NCBI GenBank assembly: GCA_902812365.1
Contig: CADDZC010000016.1
Span: forward strand, 1-56,333
Reading direction: 5' to 3'
Length of the DNA stretch: 56,333 nucleotides
Source: Acidobacteriota bacterium
GTDB taxonomy: Bacteria; Acidobacteriota; Terriglobia; UBA7540
This document shows positions 18,243-27,623 of the stretch, in pieces. The notes beneath the pieces were generated by a model. The model ran no database searches, was not told where the DNA came from, and saw only the letters and a list, made by a program, of their open reading frames with translations. The position numbers were made by a program, and so were the translations under genes. Numbering within the stretch: the stretch's first letter is position 1; each line of letters starts with the position of its first letter.

Positions 18243-18929
18243 TTAGAGGTGGTCTGGCGCGCTCGCGCGCGGCGCCGCCGGAGAGATCACCTTGACGGCG
18301 GCCGCTGGACGAGAAATGACAAAGGTGAGTTCCGTACCCGGAGGCAGCACCAGATCCGGATGCCGCCGCGTGAGCCGGTGGATGAGTGCGGCCGTGGCGC
18401 CGATGGCGGCTCCGTAAAGCGCCCCCGAGCCGCCGTCCGCGATCGCGCCGACGCCGGCCGCCACGCCCGCCCCGATCCCGCTCTCGATCGCGGTGTCACG
18501 CCGGCTCTTGCCGGCGCCCACGATCGTCCCCTCCTCGCCTTGCATTTTTGACCCGTTGACGTCTTCGGCTTTTTGCAGCGCGGCGGAGATGGCGTACTTC
18601 GTTCCGTCGGGAGTGACGATCATCTCCGGCGTCAGGCGCATTTCCGCATGGCCTTTGGCTCGGCCGGGCTCCTTCACAAACGAAATGTGACCTGTCAGGG
18701 TGCTGCCCGCCGGGACAACCTCGACACCGTGCCAGAAGATCGGCTCGTCGACTTCGGCGGTAAAGGGGTCGCCGTTCTGGTCGGTCCGGGTGCTGAGCGT
18801 GGAAGTCAGTTTCACATCCAACTCGGTGCCGGCCGGAATGGTAAACGTGTCCGTGGCCGCCACCGCCAGGGCAGGAAAGAATAAAGCGAAAAGCAGTGCG
18901 GCATCACCCCTGTTTCGAAGCCGCTTCAT
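18243..18929 (-). CDS. Secreted protein with glycine-zipper segment, paralogue of the next gene
   Basis: A 228-residue protein with a clear signal peptide (LLFALFFPALAVAA). I recognise no named family. Visible parts, in order: a strand-rich block with FTIPAGTELDVKLTSTLST, a block ending GHISFVKEPGRAKGHAEMR, a hinge EEGTIVGAGKSRRDTAIESG, a glycine/alanine-rich segment (GIGAGVAAGVGAIADGGSG) that could insert in a membrane, and a final strand PPGTELTFVISRP. The 19014-19823 gene has the same order and similar words, so the two are tandem duplicates. Both are on the minus strand with 84 nt between them. An envelope or periplasmic role is likely. Confidence 0.8.
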   Translation of the reverse strand: MKRLRNRGDAALLFALFFPALAVAATDTFTIPAGTELDVKLTSTLSTRTDQNGDPFTAEVDEPIFWHGVEVVPAGSTLTGHISFVKEPGRAKGHAEMRLTPEMIVTPDGTKYAISAALQKAEDVNGSKMQGEEGTIVGAGKSRRDTAIESGIGAGVAAGVGAIADGGSGALYGAAIGATAALIHRLTRRHPDLVLPPGTELTFVISRPAAAVKVISPAAPRASAPDHL

Positions 18930-19013
18930 GACTTCCCTTCTCTCGCCTGGCTTCTCGGCCGTTGTCCGGTACGGTTCGAGAGCAAGGCGCAAGGGGCGGC
19001 GGACCCGAGCCGG

Positions 19014-19823
19014 TTATTGGCTGGTTGAGCCGGATGCCGCCGGCACCTCCGAAGCCTGGACGCTGCGATTGACGATGAAAGTGAGGTCGGAGCCCTCCAC
19101 CAAAATCACATCTTTCTCATGCTTGAAAAGACTGTAGATCAAGGCCGTGCCGGCGCCGATGCCGGCACCGTACATGATATCCGTGCCCATGCCGGCGCCA
19201 CCGCAATTTCCGTAGTATTCACAGTCGATCTCGTGACCCATGCCGATCGTCGCGCCGATGCCCGCTCCGGCGGCCGCGGCGATGCCCGTCGCCTTGGCGG
19301 CATCTTTTTTACTCTTGCCGCACCCTTCAATCGTGCCTTCGTCATCTTTTCCGGTCTTGCCGCAGGGACTTCCCTGCGCATCTTCCAGTGATGCGGCGAG
19401 ATTGTATCGCAGATTGTCCGGAGTCGTCACGCTATCCAGCACAACGCGCATTTCGGCCCGACCCTTGATCCGTTTGGAAGGCTTGATAAAGGCCACATGG
19501 CCGTCCACCAGGCTGCCCTCGGGAATAATCGTCTTGCCGTTGGCGACCAAGGGCTGATCGACGACGCCCGTGAACTTATCACCCGTCTTGTTCGTCTTTG
19601 ACGTCAGGGTCGTGGTCAGGCGCACGTGCAACAGGCTGCCCGCCGGCAGGGTCAGGTTTGTGCCCGAAGAAGTCAAAGTGCCGCTGCTGGCCGTCTTGGG
19701 CGAGACACTACCCGTAGTGCTGGGAACCTGAGCCGCCGGTTGGCCGCGCTGGGCTCCGGAGAGGACAGGAACCAGCACTCCCACGAGGAGACTCGCCACG
19801 GTTACCTCTCGCGCTCCCCGCAT
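19014..19823 (-). CDS. Secreted protein with glycine-zipper segment, paralogue of the preceding gene
   Basis: A 269-residue paralogue of the 18243-18929 product. The start ATG 19823 has a GGAGGAA sequence just upstream and gives a signal peptide (VASLLVGVLVPVLSGAQ). A Ser/Thr-rich linker follows, then LPAGSLLHVRLTTTLTSKT, GHVAFIKPSKRIKGRAEMR, EGTIEGCGKSKKDAAKATG, a long glycine-zipper-like segment (AAAGAGIGATIGMG) and EGSDLTFIVNR. Unlike its paralogue it has four cysteines in the middle (SPCGKTG, EGCGKS, IDCEYYGNCGG), compatible with disulfides outside the cytoplasm. The function is unknown. Confidence 0.8.
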   Translation of the reverse strand: MRGAREVTVASLLVGVLVPVLSGAQRGQPAAQVPSTTGSVSPKTASSGTLTSSGTNLTLPAGSLLHVRLTTTLTSKTNKTGDKFTGVVDQPLVANGKTIIPEGSLVDGHVAFIKPSKRIKGRAEMRVVLDSVTTPDNLRYNLAASLEDAQGSPCGKTGKDDEGTIEGCGKSKKDAAKATGIAAAAGAGIGATIGMGHEIDCEYYGNCGGAGMGTDIMYGAGIGAGTALIYSLFKHEKDVILVEGSDLTFIVNRSVQASEVPAASGSTSQ

Positions 19824-20044
19824 AAATTCCTCCCCTCCCCCAGTGAACCCGGATAGCCCGTGCCCCGACGCTCGAATCACTTTACACCCGGCTTCCTGGG
19901 TTGGCAACCGTCCTCATTCATTTCGATTCCCAAGGCCTTTTCCAGGTTGCACCGGCCAGACAGCCTTTGTCACGGCGCGGCGGGCGGCGTGGGGAGAGTT
20001 CGTTTCGCCTCGGCATCTATGGCCGGCGAAAGTGAAGAGGATCG

Positions 20045-20482: not shown

Positions 20483-21898
20483 TCAGTTGCCGAGAACAAA
20501 CTGCCGGGCTGACTTCACCAGATGATCCAATTCTTCCTGCGACGGTGCCTCGCAGTAGAGCCGGAGTACCGGTTCGGTGCCCGACAGGCGCATCAGCACC
20601 CAGGCCCCGTCGGTGCAGATCATTTTAAGCCCGTCGGTGCGGTCAATGCGAGCAATTTTGTGCGCGTCTAGCTGATCCCAATCACGCTGGAGCTTGTCCG
20701 CCAGCCGCTTCTGGACGTCGGGGGTGAGGGAGAGATTGATGCGCACCGAATAAGAGGGTCCGACCTTATCAAACAAGGCCTGGAGCTGCTGCTTCACCGA
20801 GCGTCCCCGCCTGGCCACGGCCTCGGCCACCAGCAGACCGGCGAGAATTCCGTCCTTTTCCGGCAGGTGCCCGCGGATGCTGAGTCCCGCGCTCTCTTCG
20901 CCGCCCAGCACGATCTTGTCCTGCTTGATCAGCTCACCGATGTATTTGAATCCCACCGGAGTCTGATAAAGAGGAACGCCGTGGTGGCGGGCGACCGCGT
21001 CCAGCAGATGCGTGGTGGCGACGCTGCGTCCGAGACCCCCGGGAAGGCGCCGGTCTTCGATGAGGTAATCCGCCAGCAGGGCCAGAATGTAGTTCGGTTG
21101 AATCCAGGTTCCGTCGGCATCGACGATGCCGAAACGGTCCGCGTCGCCATCCGTGGCCAGTCCGACGGCGCAGCCACGCTCGCGCACGAACTGAGAGAGC
21201 TCGGCCAAGTTGGGCTCGCTCGGTTCGGAACCAACACCGGAAAATAACACGTCGCGGCGGTCATGGAGGGTCCAGACGTCCGATCCGCATTCGCGCAATA
21301 AGTCATTGAGATAACCGCGACCCGTCCCGTAAAGCGGATCGTAGGCGATTTTCAGGCGAGCGTGCCCGATTGCGGGCAGATCGACCTTGCGGCGAATCGC
21401 CTCAAGATACGCCGGCCGCGGATCGGTGGGGTGACGAAGCGGGGCCGCGAAGTTCGGCCCCTTCAGCGAGTACTCATCGGCCAGCACCTTCCGGATGTTA
21501 TCCTCGATCTCCCGCGTCACTTCCGGCAGGGCCGGAGCGCCGTCGGGACCCGAAAACTTCAACCCGTTGTATTCCGCCGGGTTATGGCTGGCTGTGATGT
21601 TGAGTCCGCCGTCAAGCTCGCGGTGAATAATCTCCCAAGCCAGTGCCGGCGTCGGGTCGGGTCGCACGGCCACATCGGTCACCACGCCGTGGGAGTTTAG
21701 AATCTCGGCGGCGGCGGCGGCGAACCGTTCGGACATGAACCGCGTATCGTAGCCCACCACCACGTGCGGTCGCTCGCGGCGGGCGAGCAGATAGTGGGCG
21801 ATGCCGGCGGCCGCCAGCCGAACGTTGGCGAAGGTGAAGGTCTCGGCGATGATCCCGCGCCATCCCGACGTGCCGAATTTTACCGGAGACTCAACCAT
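20483..21898 (-). CDS. Phosphoglucomutase/phosphomannomutase
   Basis: An alpha-D-phosphohexomutase of 471 residues that interconverts hexose 1- and 6-phosphates. The four family sites are intact: the phosphoserine loop ITASHNPAEYNGLKF (Ser104), the metal loop TDGDADRFG (Asp at 250-254), the sugar-specificity loop GGEESAG, and the phosphate-binding loop RLSGTEPVLRLY. The GGEESAG loop suits both glucose and mannose phosphates. It begins FGTSGWRG, as in bacterial phosphoglucomutases. Products would feed glycogen, trehalose or envelope polysaccharide synthesis. The gene name (pgm, manB or algC) cannot be fixed. Confidence 0.94.
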   Translation of the reverse strand: MVESPVKFGTSGWRGIIAETFTFANVRLAAAGIAHYLLARRERPHVVVGYDTRFMSERFAAAAAEILNSHGVVTDVAVRPDPTPALAWEIIHRELDGGLNITASHNPAEYNGLKFSGPDGAPALPEVTREIEDNIRKVLADEYSLKGPNFAAPLRHPTDPRPAYLEAIRRKVDLPAIGHARLKIAYDPLYGTGRGYLNDLLRECGSDVWTLHDRRDVLFSGVGSEPSEPNLAELSQFVRERGCAVGLATDGDADRFGIVDADGTWIQPNYILALLADYLIEDRRLPGGLGRSVATTHLLDAVARHHGVPLYQTPVGFKYIGELIKQDKIVLGGEESAGLSIRGHLPEKDGILAGLLVAEAVARRGRSVKQQLQALFDKVGPSYSVRINLSLTPDVQKRLADKLQRDWDQLDAHKIARIDRTDGLKMICTDGAWVLMRLSGTEPVLRLYCEAPSQEELDHLVKSARQFVLGN

Positions 21899-21956: not shown

Positions 21957-23075
21957 CTAACGTTCCGCCCGCGTCCGGGTTTCCGGCGCCTCCGGAGTAA
22001 CGGCGGCTTCCGTCAAACTCGGACTGCCCGGCCACTGCCGGCTTTCCTCCCGCAGCAGGCGAACCAGACCCATCGTGAGCGAGAGAACGATGGGACCGAT
22101 GAAGATTCCGAGGAAGCCAAACGCCTCGACGCCGCCGAGCAAGGCAAAGAAAATAAACAGAGTATTCATCTTGACCCGTTCCCGCACCACCAGCGGCCGC
22201 ACGATATTGTCAATCAGGCCGACGAATGCCGTTCCCCAGATGACCAAAATCAGCGCTTTCCACCAATGGTGCTGCGCTAGCAGCACCACCGAAGCCGGCA
22301 CCCATACCAGAGCCGTACCGACGACCGGGATGAGGGAGCAGACCGCGGTGACGAGGCCCCAGAGAATCGCCGAAGGAAGGCCCAGTATCCAGAAAGCCAG
22401 ACCCAGCAGCACTCCCTGAATCAACGAGACAACGAGCACTCCGTGCGTATTGGCAATCACCGTATCGACGACCATATCCAGGAGATGCTCGACGTGGTGG
22501 CGTTCAAGAGGGATAGCCGCCACCAGCTTTTGCCGCGCCGTCTCTCCTTCTCGAAACAGAAAGAACAGCGTAAAGAAGGTAATCACGGCGTCGAAGAGGA
22601 AGCGGCCCGCGTTACCGACCACGCCGGCCGCCCAGCCGAGCATCAAGGTGCTGACTTGTTCCAGCCGAGCGCGAATCTGAGCGTGGATATTAAGAGGCGA
22701 AAGGTCGACGTAACGGCTGGCCCATGCTGCCGGCCTATCGATGAGCGTGGCGATATACGCACTCCAGCCCCCGCCTTCAGCGCTCCTCCGGCTGAGGGCT
22801 TGGTACAGGTTGCTGACGTCGCCGGCGATGACGCGCGCCAGAGCAAGGGCCGGAACGACGATCAGCAACAGCACGAGGATCGTTGAAATCAACGCCGCGA
22901 CCCCCGGCGGTTTGAACCATCGCCGGATACGGGCGTGGACGGGGTAAAAAATGATGGCCATGACGCCGGCTAGAATGACCGGCTTCAAAAAAGGCTTAGC
23001 CATGATGTAACACAGATATACGCCGACGGCCGTGAGCGCCAGGAGAAAGCCGAAGGTCAGCCGCTTGCTAGCCAT
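21957..23075 (-). CDS. AI-2E family transporter (PerM/YdiK type)
   Basis: A 372-residue polytopic membrane protein with about eight hydrophobic segments. The two N-terminal helices, a large polar region after the third, the mid-protein GVLVVSLIQGVLLGLAFWILGLPSAILWGLVTAVCSLIPVVGT block and the late GVEAFGFLGIFIGPIVLSL block are all characteristic. Some members export autoinducer-2, others act as Na+/H+ antiporters or are unassigned. It is 58 nt upstream of the phosphohexomutase on the same strand and divergent from nuoJ. The family is clear, the substrate is not. Confidence 0.92.
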   Translation of the reverse strand: MASKRLTFGFLLALTAVGVYLCYIMAKPFLKPVILAGVMAIIFYPVHARIRRWFKPPGVAALISTILVLLLIVVPALALARVIAGDVSNLYQALSRRSAEGGGWSAYIATLIDRPAAWASRYVDLSPLNIHAQIRARLEQVSTLMLGWAAGVVGNAGRFLFDAVITFFTLFFLFREGETARQKLVAAIPLERHHVEHLLDMVVDTVIANTHGVLVVSLIQGVLLGLAFWILGLPSAILWGLVTAVCSLIPVVGTALVWVPASVVLLAQHHWWKALILVIWGTAFVGLIDNIVRPLVVRERVKMNTLFIFFALLGGVEAFGFLGIFIGPIVLSLTMGLVRLLREESRQWPGSPSLTEAAVTPEAPETRTRAER

Positions 23076-23260: not shown

Positions 23261-23776
23261 ATGCTCGTTTGGATCGCTTTCGTTCTGCTGTCGGCCATCA
23301 TGCTGGGTTCCAGCGTTCTGGCGATCACGCGACCTCAGCCTCGACGCTGCCTGCGGTGGCTGGTCGTGGGGCTCGTCGGCACGGCGGGAATGTATCTGCT
23401 CGCTGGAGATGTCCTTCTGGCCGGGGCGCAGGCGATTTTCGGGGCGGGAATCGGGGTGGCGGGGTTCCGGCCAGCGATCGCAGCCCTCATTCCGGACCCC
23501 GTTCCTTCGGAAAGAATCTGGAATCCGCGCCTCAAGCTTACACTCGCGGTGGTATGGGCGCTGGCCGGCGCCGTAGCTTACGCCATCCTGCGAAGCTCCG
23601 GCCCAGCGCTTCGAACCGGCACCCCGGGAGTGATCGAGCGGAAAGCTCCGCCGGTTATTCCCCCGGCTGGAGTCTCGTCCCTAGCCCCATGCGGACTGCT
23701 CATTGAGGTCGGGTTGCTCCTTGCGATCGCGGTAACTTTGGGAGTTGCTAGCCTGTCGAGGAGCAAGCCGGAATGA
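23261..23776 (+). CDS. nuoJ: Divergent NADH-quinone oxidoreductase subunit J-like protein
   Basis: A 171-residue membrane protein in the nuoJ position, immediately before nuoK and overlapping it by 4 nt. The N-terminal helix (VWIAFVLLSAIMLGSSVLAI) and the next (MYLLAGDVLLAGAQAIFGAG) follow the NuoJ hydrophobic pattern. However, the normally well-conserved third-helix motif (roughly YAGAxxVLFxFVxMxL, which undergoes the helix kink in complex I) is replaced by FGAGIGVAGFRPAIAALI. The C-terminal segment has one more helix. The call leans on position and topology. It would sit in the membrane arm of complex I next to NuoK and NuoA. Confidence 0.75.
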   Translation: MLVWIAFVLLSAIMLGSSVLAITRPQPRRCLRWLVVGLVGTAGMYLLAGDVLLAGAQAIFGAGIGVAGFRPAIAALIPDPVPSERIWNPRLKLTLAVVWALAGAVAYAILRSSGPALRTGTPGVIERKAPPVIPPAGVSSLAPCGLLIEVGLLLAIAVTLGVASLSRSKPE

Positions 23777-24075
23777 TCCCCGTTCTCGCCTACGTGATCG
23801 TCGGCGCGGCACTCTTTATGGTAGGGGTGACCGGTGTCCTGATTCGTCGCCACGTGGTTGTGATCTTGATGTCAGTGGAACTGATGCTCAATGCAGCGAA
23901 CATTAACCTCATCGTCTTCTCGCGGCCGTTGCCGTCGCCGGAGGGGCGACTCGTGGCCGTTTTCATTCTGCTCGACGCGCTCGCCCAGTTTGCCGTTGGC
24001 CTGGCTCTGGCTCGGGTGCTGGCCCGGAACCGCGCCTCGATGAACGTGGATGAGAATCGTTTACTCAGGTGGTGA
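23773..24075 (+). CDS. nuoK: NADH-quinone oxidoreductase subunit K
   Basis: A 100-residue three-helix membrane subunit that forms part of the ion path between the peripheral and antiporter-like parts of complex I. Helix 2 keeps the conserved glutamate Glu36 in ILMSVELMLNAANIN. The second conserved glutamate, position 72 in E. coli and in most homologues, is Gln72 here (LLDALAQFAVGLALA), with an Asp at 68. The start overlaps the nuoJ stop (ATGA). The 3' end overlaps the nuoL-tail frame by 26 nt. The length is normal. Confidence 0.92.
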   Translation: MIPVLAYVIVGAALFMVGVTGVLIRRHVVVILMSVELMLNAANINLIVFSRPLPSPEGRLVAVFILLDALAQFAVGLALARVLARNRASMNVDENRLLRW

Positions 24076-24364
24076 TTGGGGCCGCCTCGTCCGGCGCGCC
24101 GCCCGACTGGTGGCGTCTTTCGAATCCGTCGCGGACGGAGGAATGAATGGATTGGCGTGGTCTGTCCGCATGGTGGCGGAACTGCTCCGCCTCTGGGATC
24201 GGTATTTTATGGACGGCCTGATTAACATCATCGGTTTCGGCATTCGGATCGCCGGCTACCCGTTGCGGCTCGCGCAGGCGGGCCTTTTCCAAGCCTATGT
24301 TTTGACCATGGTAGTCACCGTGCTGATCTTTTTGGCTTACGGCGCCTGGCATTTCGGGTTTTAG
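24050..24364 (+). CDS. NuoL C-terminal tail only, truncated subunit L
   Basis: A 104-residue frame exactly where nuoL (about 600 residues or more) belongs, between nuoK and nuoM. It resembles the very end of NuoL: an amphipathic stretch LWDRYFMDGLINIIGFGIR, then LAQAGLFQAYVLTMVVTVLIFLAYG, which corresponds to the end of the lateral helix and the last transmembrane helix. The antiporter core of about 14 helices is missing. No part of it is found in any frame of the adjacent DNA. The start at 24050 overlaps nuoK; ATG 24143 is an alternative with a GGAGG only 1 nt away. It may be a real small subunit or a deletion remnant. Confidence 0.65.
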   Translation: MRIVYSGGDWGRLVRRAARLVASFESVADGGMNGLAWSVRMVAELLRLWDRYFMDGLINIIGFGIRIAGYPLRLAQAGLFQAYVLTMVVTVLIFLAYGAWHFGF

Positions 24365-24462
24365 CCGGACACGGAAGGACTCCCCCGAGCGCCGGCCGGC
24401 GCTTTTCGATGATTCGGCCAGTCGATGATGTGCCGGCCCGCTGATTCCTTCCCGAACGGACC

Positions 24463-26121
24463 ATGGATTTCTTCGAGCGTCACCTTCTCACTCTCGTTTG
24501 GTTGGGGCCACTGGCGGGCATGGTGCCGCTGCTCCTCATTCCTCCGTCCAACGCAAAAGCGATCCGATGGTGGTCGAGCTTGGTCATGCTGGCCACCTTC
24601 TTGGCTTCGCTCGCCCTGGTGCGAGGGTTTTTCGGGAGCGCCGCGGGCCCGCAGTTCCGATATGTCGAAAGCTATGCATGGATTCCCTCCTTGGGTGCCC
24701 GCTACCTGTTGGGGATCGACGGCATCAGCCTGCTGCTCATCGAGCTAACGACCTTGTTCGGCTTGCTGGCCATAACCGCCTCCGGCTGGAGCGTCACGGA
24801 GCGCCCTCGGGCGTACTGCGCCTTGGTGATGTTGCTCGAAACGAGCTGTTTGGGGACGTTCATGGCTCTCGACCTTTTTCTTTTTTTCGTCTTTTGGGGC
24901 GTAACGCTGGTTCCTGTGTACTTCATTCTGGCGGGCTGGGGAGGCCCTCGCCGGCTCTACGCGGCCATGAAGTTCTTCCTCTATACCCTGTTCGGTTCCT
25001 TCCTCATGCTGGTGGGGATCTTGGCCCTTTACGTTCGCTATCACGCCGACACGGGAACTTACAGCCTGAGCCTGATCGACTGGACAGCCCACGCCCGAGC
25101 GTGGCCGGAACACTTGGCTTTCTGGGTCTTTTGGGCTTTCACGGCGGCATTCGCCGTCAAGATTCCGATGCTGCCTTTTCACACTTGGCTGCTGGATGCG
25201 CAGGTTGAGGCCCCCACCGCCGTGGTCGTCATGTTAGCCGGGGTCTTGCTCAAAACGGGCACCTACGGTTTTCTCCGCTTCTGCCTGCCGATCGTGCCGA
25301 CGGCCAGCTCCAAGGCGGTGAACGTCGAAGTGATGGTCGTGCTTTCCATTGTCGCTATCTTTTACGGGGCGCTCCTGTCACTCATGCAGCGCGAGATGAA
25401 ACAGATCGTCGTGTGTTCGTCGATCAGCCAACTGGGATTTTGCACACTGGGAATCTTCGCGCTAACCCCACGGGCGTTGGCCGGCAGCGTCATCCAGCAG
25501 GTGAATCACGGACTGTGGACGGCCGCGCTGCTTCTGCTGGTCGCTAGCATCGAACGGCGATGTCGAACGAGCGACCTGAGGGAACTCGGGGGCCTCGGGA
25601 GACCGATGCCGGTTTATGCGGTTTTCTTTTCGGTGGCGGTACTCGCCAGCGTGGGCCTCCCCCCGCTGAGCGGATTCGTCGGCTATTTCGCTATCCTTCA
25701 GGGTGTTTTCGAGGCCAATTGGCGTTGGGCCATTTGGGGTGTGGCCGGCGCCATGATGGGGGCCACCTATCCGCTCTGGCTTTATCAACGCGCGGTCTTG
25801 GGGGCCCGGGAAAATTCCAAAGGTCGGGGGGCCAAGGACCTGAACTGGGGCGAAGTCCTAACCCTCACACCGCTGACCCTGCTGATCGCGGGCATCGGAC
25901 TCTATCCTCGGCCGCTGCTGAACGTACTCCAAGAGCCGGTGGCGGCCATTGTCGAGAGCGTCCGCGCCGCCGCGGATGGGGTGACATCGGCCGGTCTCGG
26001 TGGCAGCCCGACGCCCGCTTCCCCACCAGCTCGCCGATTGGCCGCCTGCGGCGGAAATCCTGTCGCCGCCGAGGGCGGGCACCGGCTCGGCCCTCGCCGA
26101 AGGAAAGCAAGAGGCCGCTGA
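24463..26121 (+). CDS. nuoM: NADH-quinone oxidoreductase subunit M, with altered ion-path residues
   Basis: A 552-residue antiporter-like subunit of complex I. Homology is clear: LDLFLFFVFW...LVPVYFILAGWGGPRRLYAAMKFF, AVKIPMLPFHTWLLDAQVEAPT with Lys233, GVLLKTGTYGFLRF with Lys264, and NHGLWTAALLLLV. But the helix-5 glutamate (E. coli Glu144) is Gly146 (FVFWGVTLVP), the helix-12 glutamate (E. coli Glu407) is Tyr408 (GFVGYFAIL), and the SH of helix 10 is Ser-Gln (SSISQLGF). The last 60 residues are an extra polar, Pro/Arg-rich tail. The stop overlaps the nuoN start as TGATG, so the tail is probably translated. Confidence 0.93.
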   Translation: MDFFERHLLTLVWLGPLAGMVPLLLIPPSNAKAIRWWSSLVMLATFLASLALVRGFFGSAAGPQFRYVESYAWIPSLGARYLLGIDGISLLLIELTTLFGLLAITASGWSVTERPRAYCALVMLLETSCLGTFMALDLFLFFVFWGVTLVPVYFILAGWGGPRRLYAAMKFFLYTLFGSFLMLVGILALYVRYHADTGTYSLSLIDWTAHARAWPEHLAFWVFWAFTAAFAVKIPMLPFHTWLLDAQVEAPTAVVVMLAGVLLKTGTYGFLRFCLPIVPTASSKAVNVEVMVVLSIVAIFYGALLSLMQREMKQIVVCSSISQLGFCTLGIFALTPRALAGSVIQQVNHGLWTAALLLLVASIERRCRTSDLRELGGLGRPMPVYAVFFSVAVLASVGLPPLSGFVGYFAILQGVFEANWRWAIWGVAGAMMGATYPLWLYQRAVLGARENSKGRGAKDLNWGEVLTLTPLTLLIAGIGLYPRPLLNVLQEPVAAIVESVRAAADGVTSAGLGGSPTPASPPARRLAACGGNPVAAEGGHRLGPRRRKARGR

Positions 26122-27623
26122 TGGCTGGTCTGTCCCAAGCCCCAACCTATGGGGCGCTCAAACCCGAAATGCTTGTGGCCTTGTTTGGCTTGGCCGTTCC
26201 GCTTCTCGACCGCCGACTGGAAGAGGACGAGAAATCATTGAACGCTCTGACGGCGCTGCTCGGCCTGCTCTTCGCGGCGATTCAACTGGCTGAATTCTGG
26301 CCTGCGGCCGTCCAAAAGGTTTCACTTCCCGGGCTGACCGGGGTTTTCACGCTGGACGCTTTTGCCATTTATTTCAAGCTTGCGGTGGTCATCGTGACGA
26401 TGTTCGTGGTGCTCCTCTCCGTCAGGCACCGCGACGGAGGTGGAACCCGCTCCGGAGCGTACTATACGCTCCTCATGCTTGGAGCTGTTGGTATGATGCT
26501 GGTTGCCTCGGCAACCGACTTCCTGTTGCTATTTTTCAGTCTTGAGTTAACGGCCGCATCGGGATACCTGCTCATGGCAATCGCCGGGGAGAATCCGCGA
26601 TCCCGTGAAGCGGCGCTGAAATTTTTCCTTCTGGGGACCTTCGCCACTGCATTGCTTGCGTACGGGATGTCGCTGCTCTATGGACTGAGCGGCTCGACTC
26701 GGTTCAGCGCCCTCGGCCATTGCGTCGCGGGCAGCGCGAACCGCCAGCCGCTGCTCTGGGTTGGCAGCACTCTCCTGCTTGCGGGACTAATTTTTAAGAT
26801 CGGCGTGGTGCCCTTCCATCAGTGGGTTCCGGACTCCTACGAGGGAGCGCCTACGTCTGTCACCGTACTTCTGTCGACCAGTTTTATGGTGGCGGCGTTT
26901 GCCCCGGTGTTGCGGATATTGGTGATTGCCCTCCTGGCATGGCACGAGGCATTGCGCCTGATCGTCACCGGACTCGGCATCGCCACCCTGAGCCTGGGCA
27001 GCCTAGCCGCCTTGACTCAGAACAACATCAAGCGTTTTTTCGGCTACTCGGCGATTTCCCACGTCGGCTGGCTGTTGCTCGGCTTGATTGCCGGGCTGAC
27101 GCGGCCGCGATTGGCCGGCACGGAGCATCAGGCCGAACGAGACGGCCTCGTGGCGGTACTGATCTATCTGCTGGTGTACGCCGTCGCGACGCTTGGGGCG
27201 CTCGGAGTGGTGAGTCTAATGCGCCGCCAAGAGGTTGTGGGAGAGGAGATGGACGATCTGGCAGGTCTAATGGCGCATTCTCCAGGTTACGCCGTGCTCC
27301 TGCTCGCCTTCCTACTGTCACTGAGCGGCATTCCTCCCACCGCGGGCTTCATTGGGAAATATCTCGTCCTGTTGTCCGCTATGGAGACGGGACACCGCCG
27401 GCTGACGTTCATGGCGATCTTCTGGGCGACCGTGATGACCTACTGTTATCTCCGCATCGCCGCCCTCATCTTCGCCAAACCCGAGGCCGAAGGTTTGCCT
27501 CTTAGAAGGAGCCTGACAGCGGCGGCGGCACTGCTGGTCAGTGCGGTGGCCACGATTATCGTGGGTCTGGATCCGCAGCCCGTAATCGTGATAGCTCAGC
27601 AGGCCGTCCAATCTCTGTTTTGA
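26121..27623 (+). CDS. nuoN: NADH-quinone oxidoreductase subunit N
   Basis: A 500-residue antiporter-like subunit adjacent to NuoK in complex I. The helix-5 glutamate is kept (Glu142, LLLFFSLELTAASGYLLM), as are Lys226 (GLIFKIGVVPFHQWVPDSYEGAPT) and Lys413 (GFIGKYLVL). The middle lysine of the GPKAAGFA-type segment of homologues is Met256 here (LSTSFMVAAFAPVLRI). ATG 26121 overlaps the nuoM stop; the frame is open further upstream inside nuoM but that part is antisense-like noise. No nuoA-I gene is in the window, so the rest of the complex must be encoded elsewhere. Confidence 0.94.
   Translation: MAGLSQAPTYGALKPEMLVALFGLAVPLLDRRLEEDEKSLNALTALLGLLFAAIQLAEFWPAAVQKVSLPGLTGVFTLDAFAIYFKLAVVIVTMFVVLLSVRHRDGGGTRSGAYYTLLMLGAVGMMLVASATDFLLLFFSLELTAASGYLLMAIAGENPRSREAALKFFLLGTFATALLAYGMSLLYGLSGSTRFSALGHCVAGSANRQPLLWVGSTLLLAGLIFKIGVVPFHQWVPDSYEGAPTSVTVLLSTSFMVAAFAPVLRILVIALLAWHEALRLIVTGLGIATLSLGSLAALTQNNIKRFFGYSAISHVGWLLLGLIAGLTRPRLAGTEHQAERDGLVAVLIYLLVYAVATLGALGVVSLMRRQEVVGEEMDDLAGLMAHSPGYAVLLLAFLLSLSGIPPTAGFIGKYLVLLSAMETGHRRLTFMAIFWATVMTYCYLRIAALIFAKPEAEGLPLRRSLTAAAALLVSAVATIIVGLDPQPVIVIAQQAVQSLF

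Follow-up and report, generated by a model that had tools for sequence, protein, structure and literature searches.

Gene cluster nuoJ-K-L'-M-N on a contig of an Acidobacteriota genome, in which the nuoL position holds only a short remnant (L'), is interpreted here, with confidence that we would place at about even, as a reduced and non-pumping derivative of a second complex I (cluster 2) that is intact in relatives. The ancestral locus would have had the order nuoC-D-H-I-J-K-L-M-N, as in relatives of the same family and class, and comparison with these relatives shows that the genes of the quinone-module and coupling subunits C, D, H and I were deleted, as was the antiporter core of NuoL. The leftover J, K, L', M and N changed fast under relaxed constraint, with loss of several proton-pathway residues. 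The products are probably made and inserted into the membrane, where the former lateral helix and transmembrane helix 16 (TM16) of NuoL would hold J, K, N and M together as a block; their present role, if there is one, would be structural or altered, and an intact cluster on another contig (C31) presumably carries the respiratory work. The window, which is the whole stretch of 56,333 nucleotides that was analysed, is contig C16 of a metagenome-assembled genome of 3.5 Mb in 123 contigs (96.7% complete, 2.5% contamination), and the reduced cluster is seen in this one genome.

The five genes are open frames within positions 23261-27623 of the window and none of the frames is broken (window ORF table; Table 1). 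Adjacent frames overlap by 4 nt (J/K), by 26 nt (K/L') and as TGATG (M/N). Together with the gene order, the coordinates and a length of L' of about 104 residues, these overlaps had been described in an earlier note on this DNA, and the ORF table and profile matches agree with that description on every point. The start codon of L' is ambiguous, being either the ATG at 24050, which lies within nuoK, or an in-frame ATG at 24143. Pfam and NCBIfam profiles match NuoK, M and N strongly and NuoJ weakly, the latter under the Pfam cut-off. What can be recognised of a complex I is restricted to J (weakly), K, M and N, and the cluster is without a NuoL core as third antiporter, without its own NuoH, NuoD or hydrophilic arm, and without several of the central-axis Glu and Lys residues. 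The window NuoM matches models and structures of NuoM best, and Mrp proteins score far lower. Homology to NuoA, B, C, D, H or I was not found anywhere in the window, and promoter and terminator scans gave results at chance level. The divergent permease gene, which starts 186 bp upstream of nuoJ, occupies the place of nuoH and nuoI of the relatives and shows where the remnant ends on its upstream side.

Table 1. Features of the nuoJ-K-L'-M-N locus (positions in the window).
Feature	Position	Strand	Basis
nuoJ-like, 171 aa, highly derived	23261..23776	+	Pfam Oxidored_q3 E 2.4e-4, under cut-off; alignment
nuoK, 100 aa	23773..24075	+	Oxidored_q2 E 3.4e-23; alignments with relatives and solved NuoK
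L', nuoL remnant, 104 aa, lateral helix and TM16 only	24050..24364	+	NCBIfam NdhF/NuoL C-terminus E 1.2e-9
Inferred deletion junction, nuoK stop to NuoL homology	24076..24092	+	nuoK C-terminus alignment; tblastn with full NuoL
nuoM, 552 aa	24463..26121	+	TIGR01972 E 2e-147; alignments
nuoN, 500 aa	26121..27623	+	TIGR01770 E 2.5e-106; alignments
Divergent predicted membrane permease, AI-2E exporter type by inspection	21957..23075	-	ORF table

Residues 36-101 of L' match positions 544-609 of NdhF/NuoL-type models of 613 residues (NCBIfam, Table 1). Aligned with the proteins of relatives, L' begins directly after the conserved NKYYVDELYDAL motif and is read as lateral helix plus TM16; helices are predicted at residues 9-28, 34-67 and 71-101 (single-sequence AlphaFold2 of L' alone, pLDDT 74). 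The earlier note had assigned to L' the end of the lateral helix and the last transmembrane helix. The latter assignment (TM16) stands, whereas the alignment and the predicted helices point to essentially the whole lateral helix rather than its end. With the full NuoL of relatives as query, tblastn gave a specific match in the window solely at 24089-24355 (residues about 606-695), the remaining matches being cross-matches to M and N. No NuoL antiporter core was found in any frame or strand of the window by these searches, and there is no second core in the assembly, which bears out the claimed absence of the core from every frame. The nuoK gene is complete, as its C-terminus aligns with that of relatives to the last residue, and the homology to NuoL has its start at around residue 606 of about 695. 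Because this start lies within about 15 nt past the nuoK stop, the K/L' overlap is best read, from the alignments, as a by-product of the deletion.

Orthologous NuoM loci were found among 60 relatives, with identities of 53-57% within the family and 45-53% within the class; the nearest relatives of the window NuoM are about 55% identical. A NuoL frame of 567-718 amino acids lies between K and M in all 17 family and class loci where the contig includes K as well as L. A search with L' gave matches in 33 of 61 genomes; the 32 matches outside the window genome are the C-termini of NuoL frames longer than L', and the two shortest of these frames lie at contig ends. In 396 genomes of the phylum, all seven short L'-matching frames that were examined among the matches listed are cuts at contig ends; this check covers those seven frames and only part of the matches with frames of 330-440 amino acids. 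The reduced L' state is unique in the sample. In one relative (G001) cluster 2 is seen in full as C-D-H-I-J-K-L-M-N, and NuoH adjoins J-N in many others. Comparison of gene content shows that the window copy lost C, D, H and I in addition to the NuoL core, a reduction larger than first noticed. A full nuoL in related genomes combined with a unique deletion in this copy had been named in the earlier note as an outcome that would speak against its view of the cluster, and this is what the related genomes revealed. When 399 genomes of the class were searched for the window NuoJ, no close relative of this protein was returned.

Another relative, G004, is the weakly supported sister in the tree described below. 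That it shares the window state was considered and rejected, since its NuoL is damaged but mostly full, with an in-frame gap around TM7-8; the missing segment is present in the congener G020. Cluster 2 of G004 (L055, contig C108, 9662-13403) carries extra ORFs between nuoK and nuoL, namely a 313-aa ORF and a four-helix-bundle-type protein before nuoL, and one more ORF is found downstream of nuoL.

The earlier note had proposed a search of the genome for other nuo clusters, and a complete one was indeed found on C31 (cluster 1: A, C, D, E, F, G, H, J, K, L, M and N; names beyond those searched by family were given by inspection), so the window cluster is paralogous. The nuoB gene is located on a separate contig, C22, where it stands alone (L112, 2404-2916). 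In the otherwise intact cluster 1, nuoI is absent between nuoH and nuoJ (L051, 11519-13072); nor was it found beside nuoH in the cluster-1 stretches of relatives that were examined, and one more distant match occurs in L098. NuoA, NuoB, NuoD and NuoH are each encoded once genome-wide and never on the window contig, which leaves the window cluster lacking its own genes for these four subunits. The NuoL core profile PF00662 has one match in the genome, on C31, and only C31 passes the cut-off of TIGR01974, while PF00361 matches L, M and N of C31 and M and N of the window.

These searches also bear on the suggestion of the earlier note that NuoL is split, with its core encoded elsewhere and L' translated separately as its tail. 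This would agree with the small, unbroken frame of L' at the place of nuoL, but the only core in the assembly belongs to the C31 NuoL, an open frame of 661 amino acids that has its own C-terminal tail. A tail-less NuoL, for which the earlier note had proposed to look, does not occur in the assembly, and we regard a split NuoL as scarcely credible.

Several residues of the proton pathway are changed. According to the alignments, NuoM carries the exchanges E146G, H323Q and E408Y (E. coli E144 of TM5, H322 and E407) and keeps Lys233 and Lys264. In NuoN the exchange K256M affects the equivalent of E. coli K247, and Glu142, Lys226 and Lys413 (E. coli E133, K217 and K395) are kept. NuoK retains its first Glu (MSVELML), whereas the second conserved Glu is replaced by Gln (AAAEAAVGL to ALAQFAVGL). 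The TM3 motif YVGGIMVLF of relatives is gone from NuoJ, the TM3 of which contains an Arg-Pro pair. In E. coli, H322 and E407 of NuoM constitute a proposed proton exit path, and the single exchange E407K still leaves pumping at about 75% (PMC9271201). A new Glu is found at residue 127 of NuoM (about 24841-24843), in the TM4 region, where LLLQ has become LLLE and relatives mostly have Gln. It is near the lost TM5 Glu in sequence and might partly compensate for it in the structure.

The earlier note had further considered a specialised working complex, in which two antiporter-like subunits, M and N, would be held by the L' clamp, perhaps with subunits A-I borrowed from C31. Such a complex would suit the open frames, the preserved coupling of M and N, the presence of Lys233 and Lys264 in M and of Glu142, Lys226 and Lys413 in N, and an L' that still has the lateral helix by which M and N are clamped. 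However, M is without the equivalents of E144, H322 and E407, N without that of K247, and the second Glu of K and the TM3 motif of J are lost. In E. coli the exchange K247A in NuoN alone nearly abolishes activity, with NADH oxidase down to about 10-13% (PMC13073174), and deletion of TM1-11 of NuoL leaves 26% of the wild-type complex and about 11% of the quinone reductase activity (PMC3274701). As C, D, H and I are gone as well, and the genome has no further copy of A, B, D or H to offer, a working complex of this type is highly improbable. More generally, known mutants suggest that a module devoid of redox arm and NuoH, and with a damaged proton path, could not act as a redox-driven pump, and proton pumping of this kind by the J-K-L'-M-N module is very unlikely.

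The window proteins have diverged far more than those of their relatives. Mean identities to the family orthologues are 24% for J, 50% for K, 38% for L', 54% for M and 46% for N, as compared to 59-71%, 70-86%, 61-71%, 80-83% and 66-72%, respectively, among the same relatives. In a maximum-likelihood tree of M and N the window branch falls among the family peers, with an exact sister of weak support (63%), and its terminal branch has a length of 1.21 substitutions per site versus 0.01-0.15 in these peers. Cluster 1 of the same genome shows no acceleration (e.g. M 68-74% versus 64-79% among peers). These identities and branch lengths indicate strong acceleration of J, K, L', M and N and none of cluster 1.

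If the excess change were neutral, about 17.5 stops would be expected in total (J 3.5, K 1.1, L' 1.5, M 6.9, N 4.6). The simulation behind these numbers starts from the DNA of a relative, ignores indels, assumes an equilibrium at 63% GC and treats all excess change as neutral. No stop or frameshift was observed in the five frames; for L' taken alone, zero stops has a 22% chance under neutrality. Excess change is near-equal at invariant and variable sites in J, L' and M, with weak residual constraint in M. NuoN and NuoK have less excess change at invariant sites, a clear residual constraint, and the hydrophobic segments in J, K, M and N equal or exceed in number those of most neutral simulations. 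The pattern of substitutions indicates that the ancestral function is no longer guarded and that the frames were guarded for at least much of the branch. This is compatible with products that were repurposed or have just a structural part to play, and also with a module whose usefulness ended only recently. The description of the cluster in the earlier note as maintained and not decayed is half right: all five frames are open, but key residues in J, K, M and N are lost.

A rival reading is that the cluster is a dead relic. It would then be a functionless pseudo-operon, lost fairly recently after a relaxed phase, in which stops have not yet accumulated. This would be in line with the equal excess change at both classes of sites in J and L', the weak constraint on M, the Arg-Pro pair in TM3 of J, the missing partner genes and a complete cluster 1 that makes the window cluster dispensable. 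It is opposed by the zero stops and frameshifts against the number expected under neutrality, by the lower excess change at invariant sites of NuoN and NuoK, and by the retained hydrophobic segments. Broken frames, which would mark a pseudogene operon, are seen in none of the five. We consider a relic a serious possibility, somewhat on the doubtful side. Within the non-pumping derivative that we prefer, J, K, M and N with the L' clamp could form a repurposed, selected membrane module, a pseudo-antiporter assembly held by the orphan NuoL lateral helix. It might, for instance, serve as a scaffold, allow a leak, provide an altered ion path or regulate the intact complex I; such a module, including any of these roles, is a speculative and rather unlikely option.

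An artefact would require that nuoL is whole in the organism and about 1.8 kb were dropped by the assembler, or that C16 stems from another organism. The 123-contig assembly with its 2.5% contamination, the 74% identical second copy of a neighbouring phosphoglucomutase (PGM)-like gene on C5 and damaged nuoL copies in other draft genomes of the set could be taken in that sense. Yet the window contains no Ns, there is no long direct repeat near the junction, and the composition of the C16 flanks fits the genome as well as that of other contigs does. Assembly error, the other cause that had been named against the earlier interpretation, could account for the gap in L alone and not for the loss of C, D, H, I and pump residues or the acceleration of J, K, M and N, which makes a mere artefact an insufficient explanation; we rate it as improbable. 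Given the PGM-like duplicate, an origin of C16 from a close relative keeps a small probability, in which case the argument from the contig itself would hold regardless.

Among known systems, the highest similarity is to the cluster 2 complex I of relatives (G001 C18, G006 C37 and G052 C4), with which the J-K-L-M-N order is shared and to which M is 53-57% identical in the family. Unlike the window cluster, these have a full NuoL of about 690 amino acids, all pump residues, normal rates of change and NuoH nearby. Complex I variants with an altered number of antiporter-like subunits, including the 2M type, are reported by Chadwick et al. (2018) and show that this number is able to change in evolution. 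These variants reportedly gained an antiporter and kept the pump residues, whereas the window cluster has lost both an antiporter and such residues. The engineered GRLn mutant of E. coli has antiporter helices (TM1-11) removed and the C-terminal part of NuoL retained (PMC3274701); TM12-15 are still present in it, NuoM, N and K are normal and no other Nuo subunit is missing, whereas the window cluster has only the lateral helix and TM16 and its partners are missing. A likeness also exists to the bc1 complex of acidophilic Acetobacteraceae, in which genes are kept, catalytic residues are lost and a structural role was proposed; this is a different complex and occurs in many taxa, while the window case is one genome (PMC10715153). 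Mrp-type Na+/H+ antiporters resemble the cluster as stand-alone membrane complexes with NuoK-, NuoM/N- and NuoL-like subunits. They require a full MrpA (NuoL-like) and intact Glu and Lys in MrpD, both missing here, and an Mrp identity was rejected for want of a NuoL/MrpA core and of the TM5 Glu in M.

NuoL, M and N stand together in the sampled relatives, from which the window case departs. It would show how the membrane arm of complex I is dismantled in evolution, or what reuse this arm allows, and annotation as nuoJKLMN does not imply a working proton pump.

Outside the nuo locus, the PGM/GlmM-like gene of the window is located at 20483-21898 and its second copy in the same assembly at C5:88121-89524; most relatives have a single copy. 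On the minus strand, the adjacent ORFs 18243-18992 and 19014-19907 resemble tandem paralogues and have a glycine-rich hydrophobic stretch near the C-terminus.
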